From: Filosporella fistucella
Lineage: Eukaryota > Ascomycota > Leotiomycetes > Helotiales
DNA length: 64,000 nucleotides
Direction of reading: 5' to 3'
Assembly: GCA_030077755.1 (NCBI GenBank)
Contig: JAQJZZ010000007.1
Span: 1,736,001 to 1,800,000 of the forward strand
Positions 8,160 to 59,873 of the stretch are shown here, piece by piece (position 1 is the first letter of the stretch; every line of letters begins with the position of its first letter). A model generated the notes under the pieces. It had not been told where the DNA came from, did not search any database, and saw only the letters and a list, made by a program, of their open reading frames with translations. A program made the translations under genes and the position numbers.

Positions 8160-10858
8160 GAAATGGATGAAAGTGAGCTGTTAGTTTACTTTGAGTGAAC
8201 GCAATGTCGAAAGAATCTGTTGTATCGTTTTCTCCCCACCCCCAGTTGTGTGTCGAGTCGCATTCATCTTCGCCCCTGTTTGTTGTCCTACAGCAAACTT
8301 ATCCGAATCGCCACACACGCGGTTCCTCACAGAGTTGCAGATGCGGCTTACAGAGTAGGTGAGATTTGTGTATTCATGTTTTGCACTGGTGTCCGATTCT
8401 CAGAGGACATATAAAAAGTATCCTGCATTAAGATAATCAGCTCCAAACTTGGTCTATGAAGCTGACTCGTAGGTAATTGATTGAATGCGGTAAATACAGA
8501 TTTCGTTATCACAACACCCCTTTTAGCCCTGGTCGTGTCGAATTCAGGTGTCTAAAGGCTTAAATTAGGGTGATTTTGAGCCTGAAGGTCGATGTCAGGA
8601 AACGGAGACATGCAATTCCAGCACTCTTAGAAAGCTGAGCTAGCGAAACTAAAAAAAATAGCCCGCGATTCAACTAAACCAATCCAGAGTCATTGGCGAA
8701 GTTCAGATGCAATGACTTATTAATACACATTTCAAATGTTCTATGTCTAGCTCTGGTGAGTGAAGAGAGCTAATTATTTGTTCCCCAAATTCTACAAAGC
8801 TTATGACGAAGGCAATTTGGATAAGACCGGAAACTAGAACTTATGGGAGCTCTTGCAATAATATATCTATTGAGAGTCTATCCCCAGACGCCACTAATTA
8901 AAAGTGATTTCTGCAAGATTCGATATCCCCACCCAACCAATTTCGTAGCATCGTCCTCAGTGGCTTTGCAACCCGATCCATTACAGTTCTTAGAAATATA
9001 TCATACAAGAATCACTAGGGAATGCTATTCGTAATCGCATTCATCAAAGGGCTAGCTTCTCCTCCACAGCCGCCATAGCGGAGCCTCGAACTACAGCTAA
9101 GCTTGCACCAGAATAAAACTTAAGCTTGGGTCCTCTCTTCAATGGCGCATTCGCCTTGATAGCTTTTCGTACGGCAGAGTTGATAACAACGTTAGAGCTG
9201 CAACAGTATCGCCCCTAACTAGATGCACAAACTAGCGCACATGGGGGATAGTGAACCACAACTTTATATGCCGCAGAATTACAAGGTATTAGGTTAGCCC
9301 CTCAAATTGCAGACGAAAACGCAGAAAACGGAAACAAGAGAGACAGGCTGATCATCGTCACAGACAACCAAGTAGCTATCTAGACACTTTAGAACCCGAT
9401 ATATTGTCAAAGGACAAAGCAAAGCACTTCTTGAGACGCCTATGTAAATAGTCGTAGATAGAAGACAGACAATCCGGCGGAGGAGGTTACTGGTCACTAC
9501 AAAGTGTTGAAGTGAGGTCTGCGACTACCAAATACAGTAAAGCGTCACCTCTACAACTGGCGCCGAAGCTGGACCATGCCAGCATAGTAGCCCCCTAGGG
9601 TGGACAGCTGGAACTGAGTATGAATAAATGAATGAGTGAAAAGCTAATGGATGACAAAGTAAATAATGCGAAACAATCAGTTATGATGGGTTGATGTTAA
9701 CCTGCTTGACAGGTTACTGGCGATTCTTTCTCGTCTTCACCGTTGTAGGTGCGGATTTATTTCTATGTTGTGCAGCGTTGGTAAGCCGAAAAGCGGGTGT
9801 AACCATCCCATCTAGGCAAGCTCCTGATAGGCCTGATGTTTATCATGCACAGACCTGATGTCTTTCATGCACAGTAATTAATAGAATCTAGAATCTGTAT
9901 TACAGAGTATGTGACAGTTGGAAACTGTAGATCTAAAGCGGAATAGTCTCATATGTAAGAAGTTCAACTTGGATTTCGCAGGACTATTATTAGCAGCTGC
10001 AGACTCAAGTGCATCTCGGCCGCTCGCCCCATATCGGATGTATCTCCTTAAGGTTTATTCCCCGTACTCGTGGGCCAACGGCAGTCGCTTCCCCGCTTCT
10101 AGAACAGGGCCAGGGCTGCAATATAGAAACGATATCCGAACACTCGCATTGGATTAAGCTTATGGAGGTGCAGCGGGTAATTAACATGACAGACAAGGGT
10201 TAGGTAGTTGCATGCACGTACGTTTATTTACCTCGCTTTTCCAAATCGAGTAATTAAAACAAGCCAAACGAGAGATCTAATACTTGATCAAGTAAATTAG
10301 AACGACTGTGTTGGAAGCCCCTTGATAGTGCTGTTACGTTACTTACCCGCTATATCTCCGTAGCTCAAGATCCAGCAGATCTTAAAATACCTCCGTACAA
10401 TCAAGAAGCACAGGTTAAGCCCTCGGCGGGAAACTGGACCTACTTCCACCAATGTCTACCACTCCCACTAGCTCAACCCCGCAACCCTATAAGGCAAACT
10501 GCAAGGAATTTTGCGCCTCTAATGGATATTGAAAGCAAGAGGAAGAAAGTAACGCTGCTACCTCCGTACGACTAAGCCTGAAAGAGACGGAGCCCGGTAC
10601 TTTCGCTTAGTACCAGCCATTAACGCAACAACTCTCGTTTGGCTTTCTATATACTCTGAGAAAATCGACCGCAGGGCGGAGAGTTATATCTCCCCGTCTT
10701 ACTCTAACATTAAAAAATCTATTTACCCAAAAGCCCGTCTGACAAAGTATGGCTTGATGAGAGCTAAAAATGTGTCTCTCTGTGAATAATCGGGATGTGT
10801 AAGTAGACGAGAAGCTTGGAAACCGCCCTTTTCAAAGCAAACCAAAAGCGTAAAAATG
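8160..10858. other. 2.7 kb without a recognisable gene
   Basis: Only short, low-quality open frames are present on both strands. Near 9543 the sequence TGGCGCCGAAGC follows CTCTACA, which resembles a retroelement primer-binding site, but no LTR pair or gag-pol frame accompanies it. From about 10.6 kb the DNA becomes the promoter region of the small secreted-protein gene. Confidence 0.45.
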
Positions 10859-12570: not shown

Positions 12571-14687
12571 TCAACTGTCATATGCAGGACTCTTCAAGTT
12601 TGAATCGAAGAGACTGTCAATATCAGTGTCTTCTTCTTCCATTGCTCTTCCCACATCTTCATGAACTTCCGAGTTCTTGAGTTCTGCCCGATTATCTGTA
12701 TGAGGAGTGTCCACGCGCATCACTTCAGTTACCCTTCTTTCATTGCCGGTTTGGTAAGCAAAGCCGGTTATATTTCCTTGCAAACTGATTGCAACCACAT
12801 CTGCGACTTGACACACCGGATCTCGAGTATCACCTGCTCGATCACTCAAATCTAAACCAACAAAGTGGTTTGAGTTGACCTTTTGGATTCTGGAGCTTAC
12901 AGAACTGCCATAGATATCCGAAAACGTGGCTTTTCTCTGTGTTCTCTCCGCGATTGGTTGTCCATCTCCCTCAACTTGAAAAACAGTATCTTCTTGAATC
13001 TGGCTCTTGGTCCTACTTTGGCTGAATTGAGAATTCTCCTGTTGGCGCACGTCATTTTCCACGGGTAAACTGTATAACTCATGGATTGCATTGATTCTTT
13101 CTTGGGCCGCTTGTTCAGCCAACTGAATCTCGGCCATTCTTGAGGCTTCATTTTGAGACAGAATCCGAGAGCCACTTGAGTCACCTCTGCGCGGTCCTCG
13201 TGGTAGTGGATACTTGTGCATCACATCCCGGATCTTCTGATTTGTCTCCTTGCGAACTTTGGCAAGATCGCTCCTAGCATCTTTTTCGCGCTGATTTTCC
13301 CACCCTGCGATTCTCTTCGCAAATGCATATTGGCAATGTCTATCCATCAACGCAATTTTTGCTCGCCTGCCGTCAATCGTGTTGGGTACCGGTTCTGACT
13401 CTCGGCGCTTGTCCATTTCCCACTCCAAGTAATGAAGCTGGAGTTGTACTGGGACACGACTCAGCTTCGGGGTGCATCCTTTGTTGAACTTGATTGGAGC
13501 ATATGGACCTTCATTTGGTGCATATTCTCTCGTTCGTGTGTCGTAGTTGAGTTGTGAGAGGTGTCGAACAACGGTCTTAGGCACAGGCGACTTCAATTCA
13601 TGTGGTTGGTCGAAATAAGTGACATGTGGAGTGTGTGTCGCGGGTTCAAATTCCGCTTGTTGGGATGGTTGAAGGTCGGAAACTTGGTTCGTTTCAGAAC
13701 ATCTCGTTTGAATAAGAGGAATCTCGTCTCGTAGACTAAAGCAAGGATGTATCAAGGTGGAACTTCCCAGCATAACTTGTTGGTTCGAGGCAGCTGGTGT
13801 AATGTGTAAATCGCCATACATATTTACGACCCGCAAACCCCCGATCGGATTTACCTCCATGTACCATCGTGTATGGGTATTTGTTTCCTGGGGAAGAGGT
13901 GACGGAGGTGGTATTGTATACTCTTCGCCGTTGCTGTCCCACAGCGAGATTGATTCGTCCTTATTTGACATCCAAGTCCAAATTGACTCTTGGTATATTT
14001 CAGCATCAGGCGGCGTTGAAACTTGACGAATAGACGAACGAGAAGAAGTCGGAATACGACACGATGTTGGTCTATTTTCAGAATTTCTAGGTCTTTCCGG
14101 GTAGGGGGCTGAGCGGTTGCCGGAGTTGGTCTTATTCGATCGGCTTGGACCGCGTATGTTTATATCGATGGCGGGTGTGGTGCTGTAGGAAATGTGTTCG
14201 TCTGAAGATATTTTGGCAGACAAGGATGAAAATGAAGATCTGTATCCGGGTGTCGCCTTATTAATTTTCTGGGTAGACATGCTATATGCGGGGCCGTTGT
14301 ATGCAGATGACATGCTGCAGCCAAGTTGAGGGCCCAAAAATTGAGATTGCTGTCGTTCATTGTGCAAAACGTTATTAATGTCAAGGTTACAAGGGATAGT
14401 TGAGCTAGTGTCATAAATCGATTCCCTGGAAGGGTTTTCGATGTCGTTGAGGGTTGTGAAAGTATCGAACATGATCTGATCATCGTTGCTGATGTCGTAT
14501 GTTTGATGCTATGGAATGGTAAGCTCTATCGCATACTTCTGGTTCAACGAGCACCCAATGAGAAAGAGCGACAAATATATAAGCTCGGGGATATACAAAT
14601 GCTTATGAAGGTGGTGTGACTTACGTTGATGAAACACTCCCCTCTTCCCTCCTGATTGTTGGGTAACAACATGACTGAGTGTGTCAT
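12571..14687 (-). CDS. array gene A: 666-residue protein of unknown family
   Basis: The gene has two exons. Exon 1 (14625-14687) has 21 codons starting MTHSVMLL. A 116-bp intron GTAAGT...CATAG in phase 0 follows, then exon 2 (12571-14508). No signal peptide or membrane helix is seen. The first 300 residues are serine-, asparagine- and proline-rich and probably disordered, with ISLWDSNGEEYTI near residue 210. A conserved core lies at about 356-433: PIKFNKG, then VPVQLQLHYLEWEMDKRR, then a charged helix with QYAFAKRIAGWENQ. After it come basic PRRGDSSGSR and an amphipathic EIQLAEQAAQERI stretch. Core, ISLW motif and exon structure recur in the genes at 19.1 and 21.6 kb. The function is unknown. 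Confidence 0.75.
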
Positions 14688-15610
14688 GAAATCAAAACAG
14701 AGCTGAAAGTTTGATCTGTCTCTATGGATCGGCTTATGGAGTAAAATTTCAAAAGGCGTTAAGATCCACAGCGCAGCGCAGTATGGGTTGGGTTTTAGAA
14801 GATGTGAAAACCTGCTCGCAGCTTCAAGTATTTCGCAGCTGATATACAAGGCCAGAAACTCCCTGTCGCTAGGAGCAGCGCGGAGAAATATAGTTGGTTA
14901 CGCTAAGAGCTTCCTCGCCTCTAGAATATTCCCTTTGTTCTGAAACAATGGCTTTGTTCCAAATTAATCTTGAAACAATTTGTTCCAATTCACCATATTG
15001 CTGAAAATGCAAAGGTCGACCCAGAAACGCAGAACACGAAGACTGGACACTATTTCAAGAGGAGCAGCCTGCAAAGATTGTATGCTTCAATTATATCTAT
15101 ACATTGAAACATATTCTGCAGCTTGGAAGAAGTTGACGATTGGATGTTGCAAAACGGTATGTTACTAACGTGAAGTCATTTCTTACTCCTCTCTCGCCAG
15201 ATGTTGTGAGTGCTCGCTTAGACCCCCTTTCTGGGCGGACCTCGTCTCTCCTAGAGAAGAAGCGAAATACTTTCTAGGCAATGCCGATCCAGTTCCGATT
15301 CATCGGCCACTTAAAGTTCTGAATATATGTATCGCTCATATACCTTCTGTCAACCACCGTGGAGTGCTGCCTACTTCTGGAGACGATGTCAATCATGTAA
15401 AATAGTTGCGAGGGCCTGGCTACATGTTTCTGCATTGCTCTTGTGTCTAATTCTGCGCTACAGAACCAGGAAACAGAGTCTGTCCATGAATACCATGTAT
15501 GGAATCTGTTTTGTTACCACCGGAACACTGAGTGGCCGAATACGCAAGCTTTGAATACATTTCCATCCCGGCAGCCCCCCCATAGCTCCTCAACCATCGC
15601 TCCGTGGCTT

Positions 15611-16023
15611 TCAAAACATGTTCGATAGATATTCTGTAACACCACCCCACATAGGATCCACTGACGTATCCTCACCAGCGATAGAACTCGTCCACCATTC
15701 GTATTCAAACCACATACCCCATTGATTGTTATAAGAACCCGCGAGTCTGACCATGGCTGGCCAGCAGGTTGCGGAATCCACACCATTCTCCGGCCGCCTG
15801 GAAACTCTCCGGGTGGAGTTGCATCGACAAAGACGCGATATTGGTCATTTATTTGGCGTGATGAGAATTTGGATGCTGCCTGGATGCTGGAAACCTCATG
15901 GAAGAGGTTGGCAGCACGAGCTCGGTTTCTTGGCTGGGCAGGATCACCTCCTATGATATTGCTGCTACTCTGTTCTGCATGTGCATCAGGAACAACGACG
16001 TTGCTTACACCATTCAACATCAT
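15611..16023 (-). pseudogene. hypothetical protein with an apparent frameshift
   Basis: The frame opens at ATG 16023 (MMLNGVSNVVV) and reads well to GGRRMVWIPQPAGQPWSDSR. The protein-like reading then continues in another frame, one base off, as GSYNNQWGMWFEYEWWTSS and GEDTSVDPMWGG to a stop at 15611. The switch falls at a GGG run near 15744-15746. One missing G there would explain it, either as a real frameshift or a sequence error. Together the two parts give about 137 residues rich in tryptophan, glycine and aromatic residues. The family is not recognised. A spliced junction is less likely because no donor and acceptor fit. It lies between array gene A and the decayed copy D and may belong to the same neighbourhood of fast-evolving genes. 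Confidence 0.5.
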
Positions 16024-16181
16024 AGTATATATCTTCGACAAATCCAGAAGGTCGCAAATCTTCGCCTGCCAGAAATTTGTTTATGTGTGCCAACTGGGAG
16101 TGAAGCCCGCATGCTTCGGATCAGGCTTTGGGGAGTTGGACTATCATAACTTGGATTCAAGTTTTGCTGGCTGACACATAT

Positions 16182-17174
16182 TTATTTCTCCGCACTCCCG
16201 GATTGTGGCACCTCTTTCTCACGAGATAACTCTTGATTTTCCGTCTCAGGTGGAAAAACGTTGGATGACTTTGCCTCGCATTTAGAGTCAGGAAACATAT
16301 TATGTGTGTTATGTACCATGGTTTCAGATGTATGAGGTGTCTGATGCAATCGAATATTGCTTCCTGGGTTTTGATTTTGTATGATTGTTGTGCTGTCTGA
16401 TGGAGGTGTATCAATAGTCGAGGAAGGATAGGAGTTGAGGTTTGGTGTAGATGCACCTGCAGACATGACCCTGTCGGATATATATGCCGACATGGAATCA
16501 GAGTTTATTCTCGATTGTTTCTGGTCGCTACTCGCAGAAGACAGCTGGCCGTCAAGAGTTTCTTTGCGTTTCTGCTCTTTTTTCCATGCAGTAGAATTCT
16601 TCTTGGGACGGCCGTCCTTCCTCGATCTCCCGTCCCCATTGCCTTGCTTTGCTGCTTGGCCAGCTCTTTTTGCAATTTTATCAGTGCTTCTTCTTTTTCC
16701 TTCAATATATCGGCTTCCTCACTCAACTATTTTTTCAAGTGCATGACGTAGCGTTGTTGTTCTATGTGATCAAACCTGCCAAGCCTAGCTCACTGATCTG
16801 GAACAATGTGAAGTTTTGCCTCATTTTGGAAGCTCTCATGAATTTCTCTATTCAGGAAACGAAGTTTGTCTTATACACTCTGGGTCTGTAGTCCCCCCCA
16901 CTCACTAGGTGAACGAGTATAGATGATTGGCGAGTCATCGACCGGGGTCAGAGTTTGAAAGCGAGTAATGAGGGTTCTTGAGAAGGAAGAGTAGCGGGAC
17001 GTGGCGACAAAAACGCATGGTTGTTGTTGATTTTGTAGAGTGCTTTCGCTGTCGGCGCTTTAGGTTGCTCTCTTCCCGTCGAGTCACCAATTTCATTGGC
17101 TCCGTTAGTCATGCTAAGGAATGGTAGGGGAATTCCACCACTATGTACAGTAATGGGCTCTATTGGAGTTAACA
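16182..17174 (-). pseudogene. array gene D: decayed paralogue of the core family
   Basis: One minus-strand frame runs from about 17000 to 16620 and carries the family core in degenerate form: DKLRFLNREIHESFQ, then DHIEQQRYVMHLKK, then a coiled-coil EKEEALIKLQKELAKQQ. It aligns with YLE-x-EI...FQ...QQ of the gene at 19.1 kb. Three in-frame stops interrupt it (TAA near 16867, TGA near 16791, TAG near 16727). After a frame change near 16640 the basic GRPKKNSTAWKKEQKRK segment follows and leads to a serine-rich tail ending at 16182. Upstream frames toward 17174 (MLTPIEPITVHSGG) may be its N-terminal part. The breaks mean it is unlikely to make a full protein. Confidence 0.6.
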
Positions 17175-17214
17175 TACTGTAGGTATCATTCCTGTTTCGA
17201 AAATTGCGAGACAA

Positions 17215-18585
17215 GCTTAAAACTGCGAAAAAAAAGTCTTATTCGGTTCCTGAAGCAGGAGAGCGAACAACGTTGGCGGACTTCTAAATTAGCTTGTACG
17301 CGGAGGGATGTCTCTGATTTTGGATTGTACATACCTTCTGTCTCCTTCGGCCAAGAGCTTATGTTGTTGATAGAATAGGCTTCTAGGTCTGAGTCCGGTT
17401 GCTGTCAGCTTAATCTTGGGATGGACCTGAGAAAGCGAAAAATGTGAGCAATTGATGTTATCGTACAACACAAGGACCGAATCACCTTCTGGCTTCCTGG
17501 ATCTGGGTGTCTATCAAGGTCGAGCCACAAGCTAGACTACAGAACCAAAGCGTCTTACGTACAGGCAGAGCGTGTAAGTACTGAAGAAGGACTGATATGA
17601 CTCTGAGGTTGATACAACACTTTTTAAGTAAGGTATGCACTCCGTTTCGTTAATGGAAAGACTTAACATATTCAAGGGCAAGTATTGTTGCAGAAAAGAG
17701 TTGTAGTAATCAATTGTTTGACCTGAACCTGGGAGTTTAAATCCAAACGTGGCCGCCGGCAGCAACCATGATGGCGACCCAATCCCAAAGCCGCTATATT
17801 GGGACTAATTAGCTTTATTCTACTTAGAGTACAAGATGAAAGACGAATTAAATGCATAAACAATGTCTTCAAAGTGAATTAGAGCAAAAATATTTATTTT
17901 GACTTGGTCAAATTCAATCTGAACACTACCAATTTATAAATTTTCGTGTTCCACATCAGCATCATTTTATGAAGCGGATGGTTCTAGTCTGCAATAACGA
18001 GTCATCTCAACAGCCTCAAATACCTTCAGAACATAGCTCTTCTCTCATCTGACTCTCCCACGGAACAGAGCAATTTACACTGCCCTAGCAGAGACGATGA
18101 CTTATCTGAGATAAAAAGGGAGGATGGAGATAGAGTGCAATAAATAACATCACAATAAGCCAGACAGCTTTTTATTAATGATTTCCCGCTATCTCATGAC
18201 CCAAAAGCAGATGATCAGCAGTTCAATTGCAAACACGGACGAGAGGAAACGCCAGACTATCACAAACCCATCGACCTGCAGATAGCAATTTGTCTATATA
18301 CGATTGAGTTGTACGTATCATACTGTTTGATTTCCGGGAACTGGCCGAGGTCATTGTTGCTTAGCAATCTCATCCATCTTGAATCCTCACTAGGTCCTTC
18401 TAGAATTCAACAATTCCGCAACATCGCGGTGCTGCGAGCTCCTCTCGAAACCTTTTGTGGAAAAAGGACATCGTGAGCACACCGACTTCCATCTAACCCG
18501 AACCCAATATGCAGAATCGCAAGCATGTCTCTTTCTCATTCAATCGCCCAAGTCTTGTATTCCAGCATTATTCAAAACTTGGATA
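17215..18585. other. intergenic with one weak fragment
   Basis: A minus-strand stretch at about 17590-17790 reads as GSPSWLLPAATFGFKLPGSG without a start codon and could be a gene fragment. Otherwise no gene is visible. Confidence 0.35.
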
Positions 18586-18965
18586 CTATCCTCCCTTCGA
18601 CTGCATTTGTACCAAAATATGCCAACTCTGCGTCGCCGGGTGGTGTATCAATCGAATTTCGCACTCGAGGATATGATTGGGGGATAATGCTAATGTCGCG
18701 TTGAGAATAGGAAAGCTATGAGTGAATTCCCGGGAGAAGGGGATGCGAGTATTGCCTACTTTGGAACCGAAAATATCGCTTAGCATTCCTCATTTGTTCA
18801 GGGGAGAGGAGGACATCAACTTACCTATAATCGTCGCACAATGAGAGAGGATGAAGAAAACTTCCTGAATTGGTATATTTGTATGCTTCTGAAACACATT
18901 TGTGTGCTATATGTAGTTGTCGTTGCGGCGAACGATCGCCACCGCTAAGGCATCTCAATCACGTG
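18586..18965 (-). CDS. possible small two-exon gene or fragment (E)
   Basis: The last part (18586-18778) reads SDIFGSKVGNTRIPFSREF through to QSWHILVQMQSKGG. It can be joined to an upstream frame (18835 to about 18965, containing EAYKYTNSGSFLHPLSLCDD) across a 56-bp intron GTAAGT...CTAAG. The upstream frame has no ATG, so the start is missing or lies in another exon. An ATG at 18786 inside the proposed intron would instead give a 66-residue protein. No family is recognised. It lies in the minus-strand array, next to gene B. Confidence 0.28.
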
Positions 18966-19080
18966 AAAGAGCGAGAGTGGTGATACTTCGGATGTCCAAG
19001 GCTGCAATGACGCTCCAGAATTTAAGGCATGGAATCCTGGAAACAGAAACGTCCTGGTCTATTATTCATCGGTTGATTAG

Positions 19081-20108
19081 CTAGAATTGCTTTGGGTGAT
19101 TACTATGTTTGTTTAGCTGCATCTTAGCTGCCTGTTCGGCTGCGCGTCTGGCCTTTTGATGTTTTCCGCTTCCTGGAGGTCGGCCCCGGCGGCGACCTGA
19201 ACACGATGAGCTAGAAGTAACACCAGCTCCTAAAGTTGCATCACTAGGAGGAGATGGTGTATTATGACCCGGAGTCCGAACTCGAGAAGCAGCACGAGCA
19301 GGCTGCGACCCACCAACCTCCCCAGCACCGTACGAGACTTCCATTGCAGCTCCCGCTGTTCTTCTAGTATAATCCTCCTCTACATATTCCTGGCTCTCAA
19401 AGAACCAAATGTCGCGGGCAAACCGGGCTTGTTGCTTCACGGTCCAGGCTCTCATGAACAGACGCTGTTCGGCCTCGGTATCTGGAGCGACAGTACCTTG
19501 AAAACGTCGACCAATTTCGGCTTCCAGGTAATGGAGTTTGACTCGAACCGGAATCTCCAGCAACTCTGGTGAGTCGGGATGAATGAAGAAGATTGGCTTG
19601 AGGTCTGGCAAGCCCTGCACAGAGAGTCGAAAATCCGTCATCCAGGTTCGGGTTTGTCGGTCATTTTGTGGAAGAGCGCCAGGGGCCGAACCAGAGGCAG
19701 CAGCATTCGACGGATTGATAGCAATGTTATTGTTGTTTGGAAGTATGGTGTATCTAATTGACTCCGTTGTTTCCCACAGAGAGATTGGATTCGTTTCGAA
19801 TTGTCTGGGGTCGGGATAAGTGTAATGGCGCTCTGGAGCACCTGGTGCCTTGGACGTTTCAGCAAAATATTCGAGCCTGCATCTTTGTCCAGTCTATAAT
19901 ATGATAATTAGTATTTCGAGTGTTAGTACTTGTTGGTTTAATGCAGAAGTGTTTCATACGGAGTGAGCGAGTTCAAGAGGGATAGAGATTCAACGTTGAA
20001 AACTGCTTGCAAATATTGTCGACATAACTCAACTAGAAGACTTACGGTTGTTTTGTTGGAGTAGGGTGAGATATACTCCCCCACCGGCTCGCCATATGGG
20101 AAAGACAT
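19081..20108 (-). CDS. array gene B: 291-residue protein with family core and AT-hook-like segment
   Basis: The gene has two exons. Exon 1 (20046-20108) has 21 codons starting MSFPYGEPVG. A 152-bp phase-0 intron GTAAGT...TATAG follows, then exon 2 (19081-19893). Residues 55-75 contain NPISLWETTESIRYTI, matching ISLWDSNGEEYTI of gene A. The core at about 120-190 reads LLEIPVRVKLHYLEAEIGRR, then QQARFARDIWFFE. Near the end, residues 254-265 form a basic GRRRGRPPGSGK segment with the R-G-R-P centre of an AT-hook, followed by a basic helix. No signal peptide. Nuclear, DNA-associated action is possible from the AT-hook-like segment but unproven. It is the most compact intact member of the array. 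Confidence 0.78.
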
Positions 20109-20814
20109 TTTGTCTCTTTTCTAGTGCTTGAGGAGTTGAAGATCTGTCTTACACGAAGGCAAAACAAGTGCGAAGTATCCTTAAAACCAAGAAGCGTAAA
20201 CAAGAAAGTCGACCCGTGTGAGAATGCGAATCTTGTATTGAAACCGCGTGGTGTTGTGGTCGTGGCGGTGTTGTTGTAAACGTGTTAAAGTTGTGTCGTG
20301 GACGTGTTGTGGTTGGAGAGCAAGAACTCAAAGCTTGAATTGAGCGCAAGAGGCTATTAAGTGGGGCTTCAAAACAAATGATCTGACCTACGAAGCTAGT
20401 CTCTGGTAAAAATTGGTGTAATTTATAGAAGTTCAGGTCGTAAGCGGCGAGAGTGCTGCTTAGCACCCTTGTCACCGAAGCATAGTGAAGATACCTAAGC
20501 CTAGATATATATCGAGATATGCCACTTCTGTCTTTACGACTATTTGCAACTCATTCTAGACTCCTCTGTATGAATATCATGATGATCAAGGGCACTAATG
20601 AGTGGGACATGCCAGAATACTAGAATCAATACGTTCTACCCGCAAAGCTAGCCTTTTGTAAGGCGCTGGTATTATTTAATCCACGGAAGGATATGCCAAC
20701 TTGCGGGAAAGTAAGCAAATCGTGGTGCATATACAGCCTCTCCCATGATCTCATCAGTTCCAAATCATTTCCTATGAACCAATCAACTCATATGCAGTAC
20801 CCAGTCTTGACCCT

Positions 20815-21116
20815 TCACCCTTCAGCCTCCTCCACTGATTTCGAAACTCTCATTGCTTCCTCATCTACCTGTATGTATTCTTCCTTCATATTTTATTCTC
20901 CCCCGCAACTTTCTATTTGTGATACTGGTATCTTCTCGAATATTCACTTCATAGCAGACTGAGACCAAGCTGGGTCGACCTTGATAGGATTCACCTGTTG
21001 TACGGAAGTAAAAGTACCTCCTTTCGGATTCTCCCTGCCTCATCCACTCCCACTGTGATCGGATCGTTCTCGTAGTTGTGGTATGGTGTATATGTACCGC
21101 GCTCGGGATGTTTCAT
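20815..21116 (-). pseudogene. array fragment F related to the N-terminal part of gene B
   Basis: Exon 1 (20995-21116) starts at ATG 21116 and encodes 40 codons plus two bases. It contains HPERGTYTPY and ENDPITVGVDEAGRIRKE, then LLLPYN. This parallels gene B (PERHYTY..., NPISLWE...IRY..LPNN). A donor GTGAAT follows. Downstream there are two short protein-like frames (ITNRKLRGRIKYEGR, and EEYIQVDEEAMRVSKSVEEA ending at 20815) that are out of frame with each other. The core block is missing. It looks like a truncated, frameshifted copy, though a short spliced gene is not excluded. Confidence 0.4.
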
Positions 21117-21590
21117 TGTGCTAGATTAGACTCGTAGCTAACGAGATCTCTTCGATTGAGAGTCTTCAATAAGAGTATCTGGGATTGATAGCTTTAGCCT
21201 TGGCTCTAACAAAGGACCTCGGGAGCTGCAGAATGAAGATGTCTCGTGCATGTTATCTCAGAACTGCCGAGGCCTGAGAAGAAACGTGTTTGAGAGTTAT
21301 TTCCATTCTTTCGTTTACCAGTGCAGTATACTTGTCACTGTCTGGTTAGCTGAAGGACATTTTCAGCAATACAATATGGTATGTCTGGTGAATAGCTGCA
21401 TTTTTGGAAGCTGATTCCCGTCACTTAGGAGATTTTGTTTCATCCCGTCACGAATATAAGTTAATTACTTGAGGATCCGGAGAGATAAGTTCATATCTAT
21501 TTATAGTTGTGGTGTATTTTGATTAGAGTACCTCCCCCCTAATGACCACGTTAACGCTATTGCAATAACACCGAATTCATAACAAGACTA

Positions 21591-22934
21591 TCAGCCTCCA
21601 AACGGCTTCCGATAATCATCAATGAAATTTTGGTAGTCTGGCCAGTCCTCTGCCCGCCAACCATTCGGAGTGTTATAGATCGAGGAGTCCCCGACATTCT
21701 CGCTGATCACCCAGGGCTTCTCTTTCTCAAACTCCTTTGCTACAGTCTCTAGTGTACGTCCTTCCAATAAAACTTGTTGCGGAGTTGGGCATACATAGGA
21801 TTCTTTGCTGCTGAATCCGTTCCCTGTGTGTTCCACATTGTTGTTTGGCATCTGTCTGATAATCGATGATGATTTATTCGTGGGAAAGCCCGCAAAATTT
21901 CCACGGCCTTGATAGTTTCCAGCCTCGCTCTCCTGAAGTTGAGTGTTATTTGACATAGCGTTGTCATTACTGGAGGGTACAAAACTTGGATCAGAAGGAA
22001 AAGGATCATTGAAAGAAGCAGGGGTTGCATGACCACGAGAGGATGGTTTACCGAAAACTTGGGTGGAAGTGTCTTGGCCATTGCCAGGATTCGAGGCTGC
22101 ATGATCGGATGTCGAGAAAGAAGTGGGCTTTGCAGAGGAGTGCATACCATGAGACTGGCTGACAACGTTTTCTGGGAGTGTCTGGATGGCTTCGGAACGG
22201 ATGGACTGGAACAAGCCCTTCTTGGTGTCTTCTTCCTGCTGGTATCTTTGTTTTTGAGCCGCACTAGGTCTCCCGGGATTCCGCCAAGGCTGAGTTGCGT
22301 CCCAAACCAAGCTCCACTTGTTCTCTGCCTCAATCAATGCTTCCATCGCACTCTTGTGGCGACGTACGTCCTCAGACTCGTACTTTTGAATCTCGATTGC
22401 GTATTGCTCTTGCATGTGTGTGTCGAATCTCGCTAGACAATGTCGTCTCTCTGCGTCTGTGGAGAGTCTCGCCTCGTGCTGGAAATTTTCGGCCAAAAAT
22501 CTGTCCAAGTAGTAGAACTGCACGAGGATTGGAATATCGATCAATGGTTGCCAAAAAGTTGCTTGGTCGAATTTTATTGGAGCAGGTTGCGGTACGACCT
22601 CCTCGAGGCCATGGACAAACTCGAGAATTGTCAATGCTCGGTATTCATCTTGGATTGCCACTTTAAGAGCAGAGGTGACAAGAAGAAGCTCATTGTTAGA
22701 TGCAGGGCTCGAAGGCATGCGGATAGCCCGAGGTGGAGCTGGTCTGTCTGGAGTTGAAGATTCTGTGTCTTCAAGACGGATTCTAATCTGGCGAATAGAT
22801 TGTGTGGATGACTGTTTCGAGTGTTAGGTCAGCAAAACGGTCATAAACATGCTTAAGAGTCTTACTGGCAAGATACCATTGCCTTTGACACCAGTCGTGC
22901 CGATGAAACTCATTGGACCCTTGATAGAATCCAT
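21591..22934 (-). CDS. array gene C: 429-residue protein with family core
   Basis: The gene has two exons. Exon 1 (22866-22934) has 23 codons and contains GPMSFIGTTGVKG. A 54-bp phase-0 intron GTAAGA...ACAG with CTAAC follows, then exon 2 (21591-22811). The core at about 101-175 reads APIKFDQATF, then LIDIPILVQFYYLDRFLAENF and a charged helix with QEQYAIEIQKYESE. Residues 203-210 are GRPSAAQK, in the place of the basic GRP segment of gene B. The C-terminal 200 residues are low-complexity, rich in serine, asparagine and proline, and end with a WPDYQNFIDDYRKPFGG tail. No signal peptide or membrane helix. It is intact, and its function is unknown. Confidence 0.75.
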
Positions 22935-24105
22935 ATTTTCTGTATGTGGATTTCCTCCAAAGTGGTATGATGGGATTCGTTCAGCTGAAACTGGAGACAG
23001 GTGTGTAACTTTGAAGTAGTAGAAGAAATGAGACGTCCAGACGTCAGAAAGGCTTCCGAGAATCACTGGTCCGTACAGGTGGATGCTTGCTGTATGATGA
23101 TCTGTTGTTTTCGATGGGCAGGAATCTTGAAGGGAGGGGTTTCCTTAGAATGGAGTTGGTGTTGTGTTGCGTGGTATTGTGTTTTATTGGATTGCCGCGC
23201 ATGTGGTTATTAAATATCAAGACCTTGCTGAGCAACCTAGCGCTTGAAGTCAAAAATTTGCTTTTAGCGACTAATTATTTCTCTAATGGTTATCTTGAAT
23301 TGAATTTAAGGACAAAATTTCTCGAGCTAGCCGATGTTGTAAGGTTTTACTGCTGCGTCGAAGAGATAACTCGTGAGTAGAAATGGCCTCATTCATATAA
23401 GGAACTTAAAAAAGAAACACTAGAGCAATCATTGCAACACCATATCTACGAGGTGAGATCTCAATGTCGATCTTCTTCTGCTTGCTTGCTCTGATGCACA
23501 ACTTGATTGATACCGTTGGATTTGACTGACATATTGATGAAAGAAGCCCAACGTATGTGTCGAACCTCCAAGTCCTTACCCTCCGTAGAGGATCCTATGA
23601 ATTCGATATATCCTCTTCAAATAGATCCGCCTCTATCTATACTGAGCTTCCTCCTCTCCCCTCCCTCAAGCGATATTGAACGTCCCAATCCGAAAATTCA
23701 GCAAATACACCTTCACAATCACTTCGCACAAGGTAAAATGTCGACAGACAAGGCCATGTCTTCTCTTCCCCGAGAATTCTGCTAAAGTTGTGTTCTTCGT
23801 TGATATACTACAAATAGTATTATACGATGAAAAGAGCTGCAAATATACAGGGACCTAAGTGACCTCGAAATTCAATCTCAAATCGTATCTTGTCTTCAGC
23901 AAGAAACGCCGTGAACGCCTCAAAAAGTTTTTTCTTCGATACTAAATGCCTTGTCTGGGCCATGTTCGAGAGCTGGGGTGTGACATGGCACCAGGGTGGA
24001 AATTACTGAATGAGAAGTTAGGAGACACAGCATGCCATATTCCACATCAGAAGAACCCTGAGGATGTTTCAGCACACGAGGAAAATTGTTGGAGCTCAAA
24101 AGTAG
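22935..24105. other. intergenic, nothing supported
   Basis: This is the 5' flank of array gene C. Short open frames on both strands lack protein-like composition. Confidence 0.4.
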
Positions 24106-24660
24106 TCATGGTTCTGAGACGAGAAACTCGCTGGAGAAGAACTCACTTTGTGATACCCAGACTCCGGGAACGCTATCATAGAAAGGTTGTCCTGGCCATA
24201 TAAGGGTCCCTTGGGAATTAGGCAAAAAGTTGTCTCTTATATTTCCGTTACGGTCGTGACACTGGGCAAATGTTTGATGTGTGACGGGAGGTGCATGCGA
24301 ATGCTGTTGTCTCGGACATGCAGTTTGGGAGACTTTGCGAGGATCTTTCTTTCCAAATTTATGGTTTCCATGATCAAAAGTATCAGTTGACCTTCTCTGA
24401 TACACCTCCACGATGTTTCGCCAGCAATCAGCATTGTTTAGGTGTCGAGCGTTTTCCCAGTTGAGGTTTGGCACAAGCTGTCTGTAGGCCAGGTTTGCCA
24501 AATACGGACTTTGGTACTGCTGCGGGGGTTCTAACACAAAGTTCCGAAATATGGCAGCAGGTAGAGGTCTTGTGGTTTGAGGATTTGATTGCTTCGTTTT
24601 CTGTTTCCTTGCCTTCAAGCTTCGGAGGCTATTGGTTTTGTTCGTGCTCCGACGAGGCAT
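24106..24660 (-). CDS. array gene G: hypothetical protein, 184 residues
   Basis: An uninterrupted frame starts at ATG 24660. The N-terminus is strongly basic (PRRSTNKTNSLRSLKARKQK). A middle part follows with FRNFVLEPPQQYQSPYLANL and NNADCWRNIVEVYQRR, and the C-terminus is acidic and aromatic (GVWVSQSEFFSSEFLVSEP). The same frame stays open upstream to an acceptor-like CACTAG at about 24714, so a first exon may precede it, as in the neighbouring genes. The core block is not recognisable, so membership of the family rests only on position, strand and the basic arginine- and lysine-rich segment. Confidence 0.45.
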   Translation of the reverse strand: MPRRSTNKTNSLRSLKARKQKTKQSNPQTTRPLPAAIFRNFVLEPPQQYQSPYLANLAYRQLVPNLNWENARHLNNADCWRNIVEVYQRRSTDTFDHGNHKFGKKDPRKVSQTACPRQQHSHAPPVTHQTFAQCHDRNGNIRDNFLPNSQGTLIWPGQPFYDSVPGVWVSQSEFFSSEFLVSEP

Positions 24661-24714
24661 TCTGGCACGTCCTGGATTGGCAGAACTCGATGTCCTCGAA
24701 GTGATAGTCTAGTG

Positions 24715-26117
24715 AGTATCTACGTATTGATATGGATTCAACGTCGGAAATCGAGATAGGAATTGATTCACAGAAACTAATCCAGAACAGACTTAGTTGT
24801 GGAAACCGTTTGAAGTTCATGTCGATAGTGGCAGGAGTTAAATATTTTGACCACCGAGGACAAACAATGAGTACAATGCAGATAATTCAAATCCGAAACA
24901 GAATTTGGTTTCACATCCTTCGAGGGCCATTTCTGCCATCGACAATGACTCTGATCGATGCTGGCGTCTTAGCGACAGCAGAAATAGATAGATGAGAAAT
25001 ATCTCAAAATTGTGGAAAAGGTCACCGAGAAGCAAATAATCATTCATTTTTCGTTCCACGTCTCTCTGTGTTTTAAATTTAAACGTGCTGTAAATGTTTG
25101 ACGAGCCTCACTTACTTAACTAGACAGTGTTTAAGGTTCCCAGTGAGGCTTAAATCAAAGTTCAATGAATTCAATATACATGGACAGCAGCACTCCCTTT
25201 TTCACACACTCAGCTGCCACATAACCCATTTGGCTTTACTCGACAGTCATTAGGGTTTACAACATATTACATTTGGATTGGCCGTTTTACATGAAAAGTG
25301 TTGAGCATTTGCATCGTACTTTTCAACAGGACTCTTCGCCACGGGTGAAGTTGAGCCTGTCATAGAATGCTTCGGTGGTTCGATTTCGCTCGTTCCCACA
25401 AGACTTTCCAAATATTGGCTGCACGGGAGACGGTAGTTTCTTGCAGATTTACCGCGAGCATTCAAGGCTTACCCGTGATCATTACACTTCAGACAGGTCA
25501 CATGGTTATCTCGAGACGAAAATCAGGACAAAAAGTTGTACAGAGGAGAATCGATCAATATGTGGGGATTTGATATTCTGTTTTTGTCACTAACAGCTCT
25601 GATACAGTCAGATTCACATGGAAAGCTGCTAATATTCTGATTTCAGCCTCCGGCTTCTGTTACACTCTGCGTACATGTGCAAGTGAAACCGTACTAGAAA
25701 CAACCCCTATTTCCTACGAGTCGGTGGTTAGAAACATAGATTATGACAACCTTAGCTGATAGATGATGAAACAATACTTTTATAGGTATGCTAAGTCAAA
25801 CGTCGTTTAGTGATATCTCTTCCAATTGCCCATTTTCCAGCTTCCAGTTCGCTCTTTATTTCGACCTAGAGAGTGCATATGTTTTGTTACGTAATGGACG
25901 GCTCACCACAAGTCGTTATATCTGTCCCTCCACCTCATTTCCCGCACAAAATATACCATTACATGTTAGTACTTCATCTTTTCATCTCGTGATAATAATA
26001 CCCACCCTGGAGTTAGGTCAAATGGGTTTGAGGTGTCAGACTCTTGTGACTTACTAACTATGTCATCACATCGGCCTCAGTTCCAGTCACCTTGACATGC
26101 GCCTTCTTTCCCATATC
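24715..26117. other. intergenic, nothing supported
   Basis: AT-rich DNA between two minus-strand hypothetical genes. No coding feature is recognised. Confidence 0.4.
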
Positions 26118-27036
26118 TTAGATATAAGTCTGCGATGCCCTTAATGGACTTGGATTGAATCTCCACATTTGTATCTTGATGCCCATGTCAAGTAGCTGAA
26201 GCTCCTTCCGGGTAATCGGAGCTCCACTAGATTTGATTCCATCACTAGTCTTGTCACGCGATGCGAAAACTGGAATCTTGGAATCGGTAAATGTCGTCGC
26301 AACTCTGTGCCAAAGATCGGGCACGTGCCATGGAGTGCTGGATTTGCTCTCTATAAACTCGCATTGAGGAGGCGTGGGCAACCGGGCAGGTCCTATCATT
26401 AGGTGCCCTCTTCAAAATACAATCATCCAGCCAATCGTAATCCCCTGCCATTTGTCCTTCCATCCGACGAGCTCGTCTTGTTTTTCTGGACTTAACTGCC
26501 TGCCTTAAGCGTTCGAAATCGATCACAATTTTCAGGCTTTGGTTGCGTTTGACGTTGGCCTTGGGAGCCGCTACAGTTTTATCCTCGATATCTGCTGGAA
26601 CCGAGCGAGCAACAATAATGCTAGGTATTTCCTGGCTGTTAGATTGACTTCCTTGATATGCTCCATTGTTGATTTTGTCGCCAAAGGCGTGGGTGTGGTT
26701 GACCTGGAGGTTTGCTCTTTGCTGTCCTTCCGATAGAGCATAAGAGCGGTGCCAATTACCAGGGTAAGGATTAAGTTGACGTTGTACCTCTGAATAGGAT
26801 TGTTGATACCCTCCGAACTGGTGGTAATGTTGAAAGCCGAAGTTGCGGTCATAAATTCCTTGTGGATCTAAATTGGGTTGTCCGTAGCTTCCGATGTATG
26901 GATCGTTTTGAAAACCGATGTGTGAGTTGTCGCCAGCTTGGATTTCGAAATAAAGGTGCCCATATGATCCAACGTAGGGATTCTGACGGTAATTGGTATG
27001 AGGGTTCCGTGTTGGATGAGTTTGCGCGTCGGTCAT
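26118..27036 (-). pseudogene. array gene H: glycine/tyrosine-repeat protein with probable frameshift
   Basis: ATG 27036 opens a 260-codon frame. Its first 90 residues are rich in Tyr, Gly, Asn and Gln, with a repeated NPYVGSYG / DPYIGSYG unit, typical of a disordered prion-like region. A basic helix follows (ERLRQAVKSRKTRRARRMEG). The frame ends at 26254 in sequence of poor quality, while another frame from about 26390 to 26118 reads well (STPWHVPDLWHRVATTF, RKELQLLDMGIKIQMW). A frameshift near 26390 would join the two into one protein of about 300 residues. An intron is possible but no splice pair is evident. The family is unknown. Confidence 0.45.
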
Positions 27037-27771
27037 AGGTCGGAGGGTTTTCTAAGGCCTCCCCGTTCGGAGGGGAGGCCGGAGTTTTGCCATTTTCAAC
27101 CTTTTTTGGCCAAAGATTTGGGACCTCGAGGGTGACTTGTTGGAAATACTGTGCGAAAACCAGTTGCGTGCGCCTGATCCTAATTCGGAATACGGATGTG
27201 ACTTCTGCCGTTCCCCATCAAGCGTTCTCTTCTTCCCGGGCCGAGCCAAACTTTAAATGGACGTCATTATTTCTGACGTCCCTAAACAGCTTCACTTCTA
27301 CTTTCCAAGTAGTCCTACGGTAGGAATTACACATTTCGAAGTGTTTGGGCGTGGACTAAATTTCGGATTCGATCAAATACAGGGGTGAGGCTCGATTGCC
27401 GTCGCTCAGATAGGATTCCACATGCATATATGGAAGTGCAAAAGATCCCTACAGATCTCAAGAGACTTCATAACCATTCAAGCACCCTCAAGTCAGCTTG
27501 GTCCCCAACCATTGGGTTTTATAATATTTATCACGTGACGTAAATCACCCTTTACGCGTCAATAGGACACTTAACCCATACAGAGCTATTTTAATTTGAA
27601 AATTTTCTGAACCAATACAGTGGGGTCAAATTTATGAGGGAGAAGTCATCGGAGTATCATGGTGGAACTTCAAGGACTGATAAGGTCTACCGATGTTTGT
27701 GAGTAATGTGTCGTTACCACCATCCTTCAAGCAACCTTTCCCTGTGATGACCGCAGATGCCCGCATATCTC

Positions 27772-28385
27772 TTATCCTTCAATCAACGTCCAAGACCACC
27801 TGAGTAGTGATGGTTTGTAACACACATTCTTGATGATCTTCTGCTCCCTGTACCGCTGAAAGTTCCACGTCACCGGCACTTGACGGACTTCAATCCCGCC
27901 CTCCACCAATTTCGCATCCTTCTCCCCTATCTCCTCTGTTTCCCCGAAACTTGATTCTTCTCCCCATTTGCGTACAAATAATGATATTTCTCTGCATTTC
28001 GTTGCTTTTTTCTTCTCGCTCTTAGTGAGTAGTAGTTGAGCTAGCCATTTTTCACTGGCGGTGCGGTACATCGATGATGCTGAAGATATTTCAGAGGTAA
28101 TTGGCGATATGGTATTGGGGGGAGATGAGGCTGTAGGGGTTGATAGAGATGAGGTTTGACTTGACTTGCTTGAAGCTGATGACTGCGCTGTTGTGGATGA
28201 TTCATCTGTCGCTCCTTCCCCAACGACCGAGCCTTTGCTAAAGTCCCACTCATATAACTATACCGCGGTCAGTCGAAAGTTGTAATAGAAGACACTTCTC
28301 AAGTACTCACGTCCTTGGTGTATTCATAGAGTTGCAAAGCAGCAAATGAAAGGCAGAGATCATCAGAGTATCCTGTGACTGACAT
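27772..28385 (-). CDS. array gene I: hypothetical protein, 186 residues
   Basis: The gene has two exons. Exon 1 (28311-28385) has 25 codons: MSVTGYSDDLCLSFAALQ and LYEYTKD. A 53-bp phase-0 intron GTGAGT...CTGAC...TATAG follows, then exon 2 (27772-28257) starting LYEWDFSKG. A Ser/Thr/Pro-rich linker (residues 45-85) joins to a basic and charged C-terminal region ending RQVPVTWNFQRYREQK and LLRWSWTLIEG. The exon layout matches array genes A, B and C, but the core block is not present. No family is recognised. Confidence 0.62.
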
Positions 28386-29791
28386 TTTGGAAGAGATGGG
28401 AAGAGATAGCGATGGTGTGGCGATGTTCCACCCCAGAAATGCAACATCGGAAGCATTGAAACCCCCAGGAAGAGAAACTTGTGTTCTGTGAGTCACCGAA
28501 GAGAAAACAAGACAAATCAATGTGTGAACTCGATTGGTGAAAGAGACCGAATGAGGAGAAATTCTTCAGGGACAATTGCAAGATGAATTTCGAGTACTTT
28601 CTAGTCAACGGTTGCTACCAACGAGATCGAGACGCTCTGAAATAGAGATGGTATATTCTTTTCAGTATAGATCAAGATCGATCAAAGTCAGAACTCCGTG
28701 GATATTCAATCCGAGAGCCGCAAAGACGTGTTGTAGCGTCATTATCAAAAGAAGATATCTTTTCATGTCCCCTGTATTGATAAGTAATCCAAAATTGAAT
28801 TCCAAAATCTGGAAAAGAGAGGAAATCAAAGAGGATATTGATTAGAAACGGGCCTGATTGAAAGTTGCCTTTGTGTGCAACGGGAGCTACTGTAACGATG
28901 CTCAGTGGTAGCAAAATGCCGTATGATTTGATAATAAAACCTTGAGAAGTTGAAAATACAAATTCCGAACCGAATAGAAGCTATGATTATTATGACACCA
29001 ATTTTATAAAAAGTTTACTTGGAATCCGATGGCGAGGGGACGGAGATGTCAGAAGAAGATGCAGCATTTCCAAACAGTTAGCATTCGATGAGAGCCTCGT
29101 AACCTGCAGCGGCGCTTCAGTACAATGCGCACTGTGCGATATGCTGCGTTCACTGAATCTACAGCGACGGAAATCTAACCTTGACGTCGGCCGCCTTCAT
29201 CACCTGGGTCAAATGTGTCCTCCAACGTTAAATGAAGAACACTTCAAAAGTTTGAAACGTTCGCGCTTGTGCTGGAGACAAAATTGAATATAGTTTAAAG
29301 CTCGAGAGCAATACAATTGAATTAAGGAGTCGAGAAGATGTTATAAGACAAGTAATGTGTTAAACCTGAGAAATGTTTGGATTGTGCAGGATCTCAGGAA
29401 CGACTTGAAGTTGAATAGGACCGAACGGCAATAAAGTCAAAACCGTTCCAAACTATGCCCTACCAGTATCAAGTAAATGAAATTAAACCTGCAGAGAGAA
29501 AACAATTTTAAAAATGTCACAACAAGAGCTAACGTTGATTATTCTGCAATGCTTCAATTCATTGCTAACCCAGCAAGGTAACGCGGGTAGAGTTCAGCAA
29601 AGCGACCACCAAACCGAAATGACACCTCCACAACTCTCATGATCAAGAATCTAGCTTCTTAAGCCAAATTCTGCAACGCGGTGTCTTCGTCGATTCAGCC
29701 TTGATTTCCATCGCTGCATCTCCAATTCGAAACTTCAAGATTCAACATCCTCCTTCTCAGCTGCGCCATCGATCTCCCTGATCGTCTCCTC
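28386..29791. other. intergenic, nothing supported
   Basis: 5' flank of gene I and 3' flank of gene J. I see no coding feature. Confidence 0.4.
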
Positions 29792-31000
29792 CTATCTCAG
29801 ATCTTCGCACCACTGGCAAGGACATCGCACATCATGTTCCCAATTCGGAACACCTGCTTTGACTCTCAAGAACTGATCATGCGAACTGGCGAATATCATG
29901 TGTTTAGTGTCATCGTGGAGCAAGTGGGTGAATAGATCGTCAGTGAAGGTGCTTGGGAGGAGATATATGAGATCAGAAGCAGATAAACCAAGGCCAACAT
30001 TTGAAGTGAACTGATTGTGAATATCTTTGGTTACTTTTGGCGTGCCGAAAGCGTCGATGCCAGATCCACGACGGAGAACTTCCTCGAGAGTTACGAGAGT
30101 ATCATGGTTAAGTGTAACCTGGACTGAGTTGTGCGTGGAAGTTGTGTCAAATTTTGGAGTCAAAGGTGAAGTCATATTCGTAATAGGTGACATCAAATTT
30201 TGCATCTCGAGCTCCGCAGTCTTTGCTGGAAGATTATTGTCGATTCGGAAGAACTCAGATGAGACCGGGTACTCAGTGCTATCGTACATGTCCAGAGATT
30301 CGGATGGGTACATATACCAGCAAGCTGTTGACTGGAAGAAGGGTACAAATGGTTGAGCGGTAGCAGACAGATTCGACTCTATTCGTTCTCTAAGATTCCC
30401 CTTGTCGTCTTCGATGAGCTCCAAAGAGAGATGATGGCGAGGGATAATAGGAGGAAGATATCGGAAGAAAATAGCGCCTCGTTCATGACCGACAGGTTTT
30501 CGCTTCGATTCTCCTAGCACTAATGAGCATGGTTCGGTTTTCTATTCCTCTGTTAATACTGATAGAAGGAGCAAATCTGTTTCGTGGCACTCACCTCGGG
30601 ATTCAAGGCATCAGCATCGAAGTCTGGGTCCTCGAGAGCCCATTTATTTCTGTATCTGCCGGCATTGCACAACGTGCTGGTGGAGCTTGCATGATGTGTT
30701 CGTAACATGACGGTCTGTTTTGTGTGATGGACAACGCAACCTCTGGAACCACGTAATGTTGTCGAAATTGTTAGAGGAAGATTTAAGGTCAAAGGTGAGT
30801 CGCGGTGGAGATATCGCACTCGAGGCAACGCAAATATCCTCGAGACCGCTAAGCGAGTCAAATAATGGTATAGTCTCGAACCTGTCCGGAATGAAAAAGA
30901 ACTCGAAGTTGGGGATGAAAGTGAACTCGACTTGACTTGTTGTCACGTGACTTGAGGGAACCATCTCCCAGGGAAGTCTGGCAGAAAGGAGGGCCTTCAT
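29792..31000 (-). CDS. array gene J: hypothetical protein, about 356 residues
   Basis: The proposed exons are 30741-31000, 30595-30655 and 29792-30541, starting at ATG 31000. The 53-bp intron between exons 2 and 3 (GTGAGT...AATAG) is clear. The 85-bp intron between exons 1 and 2 (GTTGCG...GGCAG) is inferred from frame and protein sense, and its donor is unusual. The N-terminal part reads QVEFTFIPNFEFFFIPDRF and FDNITWFQR, joined to YRNKWALEDPDFDADALNPE. The C-terminal part holds KPVGHERGAIFFRYLPP and ends with a four-residue-spaced cysteine pair (VRCPCQWCEDLR). No signal peptide or membrane helix. The family is not recognised. Confidence 0.5.
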
Positions 31001-32258: not shown

Positions 32259-33760
32259 TCACATCCCAAACCATTCATGACTTGCCACCTTCTCTGCACT
32301 CCACCTCTTCCCTACCTCAAAAACCAACAGTCTACCTAACAGATCCGCGAATAACACTTGCTCCCTCTCCTCAATCTCTCTATGATCGTTTGGAGGACGT
32401 TGTCCCAAGTACCAAACTCCTGCCGCAACCTTATCTTTCAAAGATTTTGAACCCTTAGCAACACAAGGATGAGTCGTGACCGTCGGGTCCTCTACACGCT
32501 CCACAGGAGGCTTCGTAGGCACTACATGGCCTAGCTCATCAACATCATCTTTAAATATTTCCACCCGATCTCTCCAGCTAGTTGACCACCACGGCTCAGG
32601 CATTTTGCCTAAGATCTCGACAAACAAGATAAGGAGGTCGGTATCATCATCATCATCAAATGGATCGAATAATTTCCTTCCTGTACGGATTCCGAAGAGT
32701 GTGCAGCCTAGTGCCCAGAGATCTGATGCAATACCAGCCTTCTTGTCAAAAATCAATTCTGGTGCGCGGTAAGGTATAGGCACACCGAGGTTTTCAGGAG
32801 GCTGGGTAATTTTGAAAGATTCGCCGAAATCAATAAGACGGGAATCTCTGCTGATATACTTGATATCCACTGCGCTCCAATCGATAGGATATACCAAATA
32901 GTGGGGCGCGTTTGGGACGGTAGGGGTGCAGGGCGGTGTCTGAGTGCTGTCTAGGACAGGAGTGGTTGTCGGTCTGCCGAGTATTTCCAACGCCTCGTCT
33001 TCAGTGAGGCCATCGAGCCCAGTGATGCAATGGAGAATGTTGTTTGGTGTGATATCTAGATTTTAGTTAGTATCTCCCGCTTTCCGATTCTGTGGCTGGG
33101 TTTTGTTCGTCTCGACTGAGTCAACTCACCACCATGACAGATTCCTTTACTGTGAAGAAACCCCGCTGCCTTCGCAACTTGCAACGCGATACCTCTCAAA
33201 TCCCTATCCCGATCTCCAAAAGTCTCAAAGTATCCTTGAGAGACATTCGGCCCAAGAACTGGGTATACAAAAACCAGATGTTCTCCATTCGGTCCTCTCA
33301 TCATAAAATACTCCAACGGTAAAGCGAGAAATTCCTCAGCACCAGCTTCACCGTTCAGCGTCAAAATTCGAAGCTCAGGGCATTCATCTCGGGATACCTC
33401 ATCCATCAATATTTTAAGAGCAACGTATTTTGTCCCCTCCCCTTCTCCATTTCTCTTCCTCTTTTCTCCTGCTTTCTCGTCGTGTACCTTTGTGTCAACG
33501 CAAAGCCATACTGTTGCAAATCCGCCGTGGCCCAATTTATGAATCACTCTATATCTATGACTCTCTCCTCTCTCCACGGAGCCAAAACAGTCGCCTAAAT
33601 GGACGGGGTGAAGACCACCTTGCTCGTAGTCGTATATGTGTTCTAATTTAAAGGGAGCTCCTTCGAGATAGAGTCCGTTATCCTGATGCGAAGGCTCTTC
33701 GTTGTTGATTGAGGCGGTGCGGTCTGAGATTTTGGAATGAGTTGAAATGGGGGACGCCAT
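32259..33760 (-). CDS. SRPK-type protein kinase
   Basis: The gene has two exons: 33130-33760 and 32259-33055, with a 74-bp intron GTGAGT...CTAG. The product is 475 residues. The order of kinase motifs is complete: HPVHLGD (about 51-57), glycine loop KLGHGGFATVWL (75-86), YVALKI with the ATP lysine at about 116, catalytic loop HGDITPNNIL (209-218, HGD in place of HRD), DFG at 286-288, and RAPELIF. The H-P-V-H-x-G-D lead-in and the GHGGFATVWL loop are typical of SR-protein kinases (SRPK) and their fungal expansions. The catalytic Asp is present, so it is probably active, most likely in the cytoplasm or nucleus. The insert between kinase lobes is short and the substrate is unknown. A poly-Asp stretch lies after the RAPE motif. 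Confidence 0.9.
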
Positions 33761-59465: not shown

Positions 59466-59873
59466 TCTTGCGACTTGCACGCCTAAGCGTCTCTCGTAGA
59501 TGCGGACAGTTGAAGGAACGGATAGCTGCTTTATTGCAGCAGCTAGTCTTCGATCGAGTCAATGGCAAAATGATGGTATTCACAAACGAGTTCGATCATG
59601 AGGATGGAGAGGACACGCAACGACGCGATTCTTGCAGGGAGATGGCGCTTAGCGCTTAGAATTCTGAGATTGCGGGAGCAGGGATGTGAAGCGCGGTGTC
59701 GGGAGGTGGCGAGGCTGTGAGAGCGAGGACGATTACGAAGCAAATACCGCCTGGAAAGTTCGAGGAGATGACCTCGATGATTCATGTGTTTATGTTGCAA
59801 CCAGGAAATAATACAAATCTCTTTCACACACTTCCGATTCTCCAACTTGTTGAACAGTGACATTTTCCACGAT
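59466..59873. promoter_or_regulatory. divergent promoter region of ERD2 and the WLM gene
   Basis: About 408 bp separates the two start codons. An in-frame ATG at 59784 lies ahead of the preferred WLM start; its translated leader has no conserved look. No clear TATA box was found. Confidence 0.4.

Follow-up and report, generated by a model that had tools for sequence, protein, structure and literature searches.

We analysed a window of 64,000 nucleotides from Filosporella fistucella (C6:1736001-1800000, in a genome of 45.77 Mb and 19 contigs) that holds an array of one gene family. The family consists of five copies at this locus, all on the minus strand and read leftwards within 15.3 kb (Table 1). 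Followed along the plus strand they are Z, A, P, B and C; three have intact frames (A, B and C) and two look decayed (P and Z). Contig C6 is 2,284,270 bases long and carries TTAGGG telomeric repeats at both ends. Of its 2.284 Mb the array occupies 1.744-1.759 Mb, some 525 kb short of the right telomere, which is not a subtelomeric position. An initial annotation of positions 12571 to 31000 had described about ten genes or fragments. A, B and C do lie on the minus strand at the positions claimed, but we count only five family copies: neither gene D nor the reading frame 15514-16080 has coding-like codon usage, and E, F and I bear no resemblance to the family core. The family also extends past the proposed start at 12571, to copy Z at 7.68 kb.

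Table 1. Family copies, exons and neighbouring reading frames, with positions counted from the first base of the window.
Feature	Position	Strand	Remarks
Copy Z (looks decayed)	7682-7993	minus	matched from A and by the A+B+C core profile
Gene A	12571-14687	minus	exons 1 and 2; core intact
A exon 1 (proposed)	14625-14687	minus	21 codons; GTAAGT donor, CATAG acceptor, 116-nt phase-0 intron
A exon 2	12571-14508	minus	645 codons and stop; core at 13225-13506
Frame	15514-16080	-	codon usage at 0.87 of the null distribution, not coding-like
Copy P (looks decayed)	16182-16939	minus	core matched from C and by the A+B+C profile; tail in another frame
P core	16637-16939	minus	three in-frame stops
P basic tail	16182-16718	minus	KDGRPKKN, GRP from 16613 down; frame differs from P core; codon usage 0.038, coding-like
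Gene B	19081-20108	minus	exons 1 and 2; core intact
B exon 1 (proposed)	20046-20108	minus	21 codons; GTAAGT donor, 152-nt phase-0 intron
B intron, branch-site region (CTAACACTCGAAA...)	19907-19926	minus	20-nt direct repeat, 85%, with 22808-22827
B exon 2	19081-19893	minus	270 codons and stop; core at 19327-19602; RRRGRPPGSGK near C-terminus, GRP from 19185 down
Gene C	21591-22934	minus	exons 1 and 2; core intact
C exon 1 (proposed)	22866-22934	minus	23 codons; GTAAGA donor, 54-nt phase-0 intron
C intron, branch site/3′ end	22808-22827	minus	counterpart of 19907-19926
C exon 2	21591-22811	minus	406 codons and stop; core at 22311-22586; tail RNPGRPSAAQK, GRP from 22274 down
Gene D	24106-24708	-	codon usage at 0.81-0.84 of the null distribution, not coding-like
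Gene E	26254-27051	minus	coding-like open reading frame, unrelated to core
Gene F	27772-28385	minus	presumably the gene first labelled I; exon 1 28311-28385 (25 codons), 53-nt phase-0 intron, exon 2 27772-28257
Gene I	29792-30708	minus	presumably not the gene first labelled I; exon 1 30595-30708 (38 codons), 53-nt phase-0 intron, exon 2 29792-30541

A, B and C have a common core of about 90 residues, which the initial annotation had noticed and which is borne out in two ways. The local alignment score of the core pairs was reached by none of 1000 shuffles for A-B, A-C or B-C, and a profile built from two of the genes matched the third at E 5.4e-8 to 4.8e-10. The profile of all three cores matched Z (E 8e-9) and P (E 1.2e-5) as well. 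Both copies were also recovered genome-wide from single sequences, as A matched Z (E=0.027) and C matched P (E=1e-3); in the reverse direction Z matched A (E=0.0015) and P matched C (E=5.3e-5), each as the sole non-self match of the query. All nine non-self matches at E<=0.05 obtained with family queries in the 45.8-Mb genome fall inside the 15-kb array on the minus strand, with none outside it. Core identities are 26/90 for A-B, 25/88 for A-C and 22/90 for B-C (24-29%), and the copies scored only 16-29 bits against each other in the genome-wide searches.

Outside the core, 198 of 1000 shuffles scored as high as the N-terminal parts of A and B, so that ISLW[DE], initially put forward as common to these two genes, is at chance level and no evidence on its own. 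The N-terminal parts of A and C are also at chance level (505 of 1000) and those of B and C are marginal (49), while the C-terminal parts are above chance for A-B (3) and at chance level for A-C (508) and B-C (635). Between copies the core alone is clearly recognised, and most of what lies outside it has diverged past alignment. One could argue, from this motif and from the weakness of most single-pair genome-wide matches (E 0.001-0.04), that we are looking at unrelated open reading frames (ORFs) with superficially alike motifs. Such a chance resemblance of the core is refuted by the shuffles, by the leave-one-out profiles (E down to 5e-10) and by the co-location of the nine matches on one strand, to which the match from P to C adds further weight, and we regard its probability as negligible.

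The exon layout can still be read in A, B and C, where a short proposed first exon and a phase-0 intron precede one long exon. We scanned for first exons 15-30 codons long, a donor of GTAAG or GTGAG and a phase-0 intron of 45-170 nt, and obtained candidates for A, B, C and F, and none for D, E, I (29792-30708; its 38-codon first exon is outside the range scanned) or the HET-domain (heterokaryon incompatibility) gene of the window. Among the controls, candidates were found in 3 of 98 ORFs of at least 150 aa and in 22 of 1782 ORFs of 40-100 aa. The initial annotation had listed first exons of 21, 21, 23 and 25 codons in four genes; the first three are those of A, B and C, and the 25-codon exon is presumably the one in gene F, which is without the core and unmatched by the core profile. 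Furthermore, around the branch site the 3′ ends of the B and C introns agree in 17 of 20 bases. As a repeat this stretch is one among many short ones, and it is because of its position that it supports a common intron.

Next we examined coding signal and age, using a codon-usage score whose training set was 64 ORFs taken from the flanks of the window and from 16 control loci (training median 0.048, null median -0.052). The long exons of A, B and C are coding-like (0.031, 0.041 and 0.044), and A, B, C, E, F, I (29792-30708), Z and the tail of P fall at the 97th-99th percentile of the null. The 83-codon core of A, a short stretch, stands at 0.944 of the null distribution when scored alone, and another frame scores higher there. 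At identical core residues the same codon is used in 10 of 26 cases for A-B, 10 of 25 for A-C and 8 of 22 for B-C, against 9.7, 9.3 and 7.7 expected from codon usage. Silent positions are saturated, or randomised, between the copies, indicating that the duplications are old, and a core kept while silent positions were randomised suggests purifying selection on it. Indices of repeat-induced point mutation (RIP) are ordinary in the copies, inside the range of the window.

To judge from their frames, P and Z look decayed: Z has no start codon before the core and its frame stops just past it, and P is interrupted as listed in Table 1. Alternatively, an intron may split P or Z.

Because all five copies have core, strand and confinement to a single locus in common, because A, B and C agree in exon layout as well, and because the introns of B and C match at their 3′ end, the family almost certainly arose by tandem duplication. 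Duplication and divergence, as initially proposed for the whole interval, hold for A, B, C and the relics P and Z; the other ORFs have no relative at the locus or are probably not genes. We consider it likely that one ancestral gene duplicated head-to-tail into a birth-and-death cluster of orphan paralogues, rather than a functional gene cluster, with D, E, F and I outside it. The ancestor would have had a short first exon, a phase-0 intron and a long second exon encoding the helical core and, behind it, the basic tail with GRP, and would have duplicated several times, head-to-tail, at one locus.

No homologue of the family was found at E<=10 in searches of a protein collection, although the 16-29 bits that the copies score against each other are too low for that database. 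In the same collection a control, the WLM-domain gene at 59784-60908, matched 1881 proteins at E<=1e-10; among the 120 matches listed, the best named ones were from Stipitochalara longipes (81% identity) and Hyaloscypha bicolor (78%), both Helotiales by NCBI taxonomy, and the best unnamed ones reached at most 82%. These matches put the organism most likely in Helotiales or close by, with no very close relative represented in the collection. The initial description of the genes as fast-evolving is consistent with the absence of a detected homologue in this Helotiales-rich collection.

On the points taken from it here, a survey of Neurospora crassa reported 82 adjacent pairs of orphan paralogues, 73 of them head-to-tail, with orphan paralogues enriched near telomeres; the tandem pairs had a mean identity of 36.1% and were judged ancient, with no RIP traces (PMC2684829, PLoS One 2009). 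The array described here resembles that set as reported (PMC2684829) in its head-to-tail order, low identity (24-29% in the cores), age and lack of a RIP trace, and may do so in lacking homologues, none having been detected in the protein collection. It differs in its place, the right telomere of the 2.28-Mb chromosome being some 525 kb away, although subtelomeric location is an enrichment there and not a requirement (PMC2684829), and two of its five copies look decayed. Collectively, the array adds a new case to a known kind, the tandem head-to-tail orphan paralogues of filamentous fungi, and its proteins match no family searched.

Regarding the proteins themselves, a fragment of C is predicted to be helical (helices 2-22, 38-44, 49-63, 73-81, 85-105, 107-127 and 138-151), with a mean predicted local distance difference test score (pLDDT) of 61.6, falling below 50 in residues 1-27 and 128-137, and a predicted template modelling score (pTM) of 0.51. 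The model of the B fragment has a like helix pattern at lower confidence (mean pLDDT 52.7, pTM 0.30); both models were built on the same four sequences, so that their agreement, a comparison suggested by the initial annotation, is no independent test. After the core, a GRP tripeptide with basic neighbours follows in B (RRRGRPPGSGK, clear), C (NPGRPSAAQK, partial) and P (KDGRPKKN, partial), is absent from A and Z, and occurs in none of 97 control windows of 160 aa. GRP between basic residues constitutes the AT-hook, which binds AT-rich DNA in the minor groove, and many AT-hook proteins carry several such hooks. B, and in part C and P, resemble AT-hook proteins (PF02178) in this respect, whereas GRP is missing in A and Z, there is one GRP per protein, and the curated PF02178 model matched none of A, B and C, its genome search having matched in no control genome either.

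As a best guess, the proteins may be nuclear accessory proteins associated with AT-rich DNA, an assignment that we hold as tentative. The core, with predicted helices near residues 38-63, 73-81 and 85-105 of the C fragment, would serve as a protein-protein or dimerisation module, the GRP/basic tail would insert as an AT-hook in the minor groove of AT-rich DNA, and the copies would act as accessory factors of chromatin or transcription, restricted to the lineage and with flanks free to drift.

A basic tail behind a core predicted to be helical, two copies that look decayed and the lack of detected relatives would also fit an origin from a gag-like mobile element, of which the five copies would be remnants, instead of host genes. 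The copies are not dispersed, as family queries have no match at E<=0.05 elsewhere in the genome. Moreover, introns are likely, no repeat of at least 20 nt other than the intron one was found in 5.5-34 kb at seed 12, lax repeat settings gave short imperfect repeats only among the 20 of 43 families listed, and a polymerase or zinc-knuckle family occurs in none of 17 proteins scanned. We find this origin highly unlikely. The same low standing applies to a family of fast-evolving secreted effectors. Effectors are often tandem, divergent and without detected relatives, as the array is, but A, B and C have no hydrophobic N-terminus (maxima of -0.19 to 0.76, against 2.59 and 2.69 in two neighbouring proteins), cysteines are sparse in them (9 in the 666 residues of A, two each in B and C), and the tails are basic and bear GRP.

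Tandem arrangement, decayed copies and high divergence would likewise suit determinants of allorecognition, of incompatibility or of the spore-killer type that conflict has diversified, and a HET-domain gene (4041-5774, minus strand; PF06985, E=4.6e-14) lies about 2 kb to the left of Z. HET genes are numerous in these fungi, so that this neighbour counts for little, and in Pfam and NCBIfam scans A, B and C showed no domain of the HET, NACHT or a similar type; we judge such a role unlikely. In a bolder and quite improbable version, the core would be a novel helical domain carried by nuclear AT-hook proteins, and the array would be diversified by a genetic conflict that involves selfish DNA, meiotic drive or self/non-self recognition, old copies dying as their partners change.

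Among the neighbouring ORFs, no other copy was found of E or of I (29792-30708), both coding-like and unrelated to the core. Gene F is weakly coding-like (0.014, at 0.972 of the null distribution), its antisense frame scoring higher (0.028). The N-terminus of D, which is basic, has a weak match at C10:1251673-1251840, in a 544-aa frame of another contig (E=0.064, 36%), probably through composition, and D is flanked by a 32-nt direct repeat of 78% identity (23286-23317 and 25502-25533) outside the gene models. The stretch 8400-10800 has the top TpA/ApT ratio among those measured (1.03 vs 0.71 for the window) at an ordinary GC content of 0.439, and may be an old repeat altered by mutation. The window has just three TCACGTGA palindromes, at 18959, 27531 and 30943, and all of them lie between 12571 and 31000; 0.98 are expected, and 8 of 100 shuffles reach three. 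Further right on the minus strand are a protein kinase gene over two frames (32259-33760; Pkinase E=2.9e-12 and 9.9e-4), presumably one intron-bearing gene, and a secreted-looking protein (36265-36966) with a PUD1_2 domain (Up-Regulated in long-lived daf-2; E=5.2e-53).

Taken together, live and decayed copies stand side by side at one locus, and the exon layout is still readable though protein identity has fallen to about 25%, which makes this array a clean case of a fungal lineage gaining genes of its own. The core profile may reveal orthologues that escape single-sequence searches. The array represents a typical route by which a fungal lineage acquires its own genes, here perhaps DNA-binding ones.
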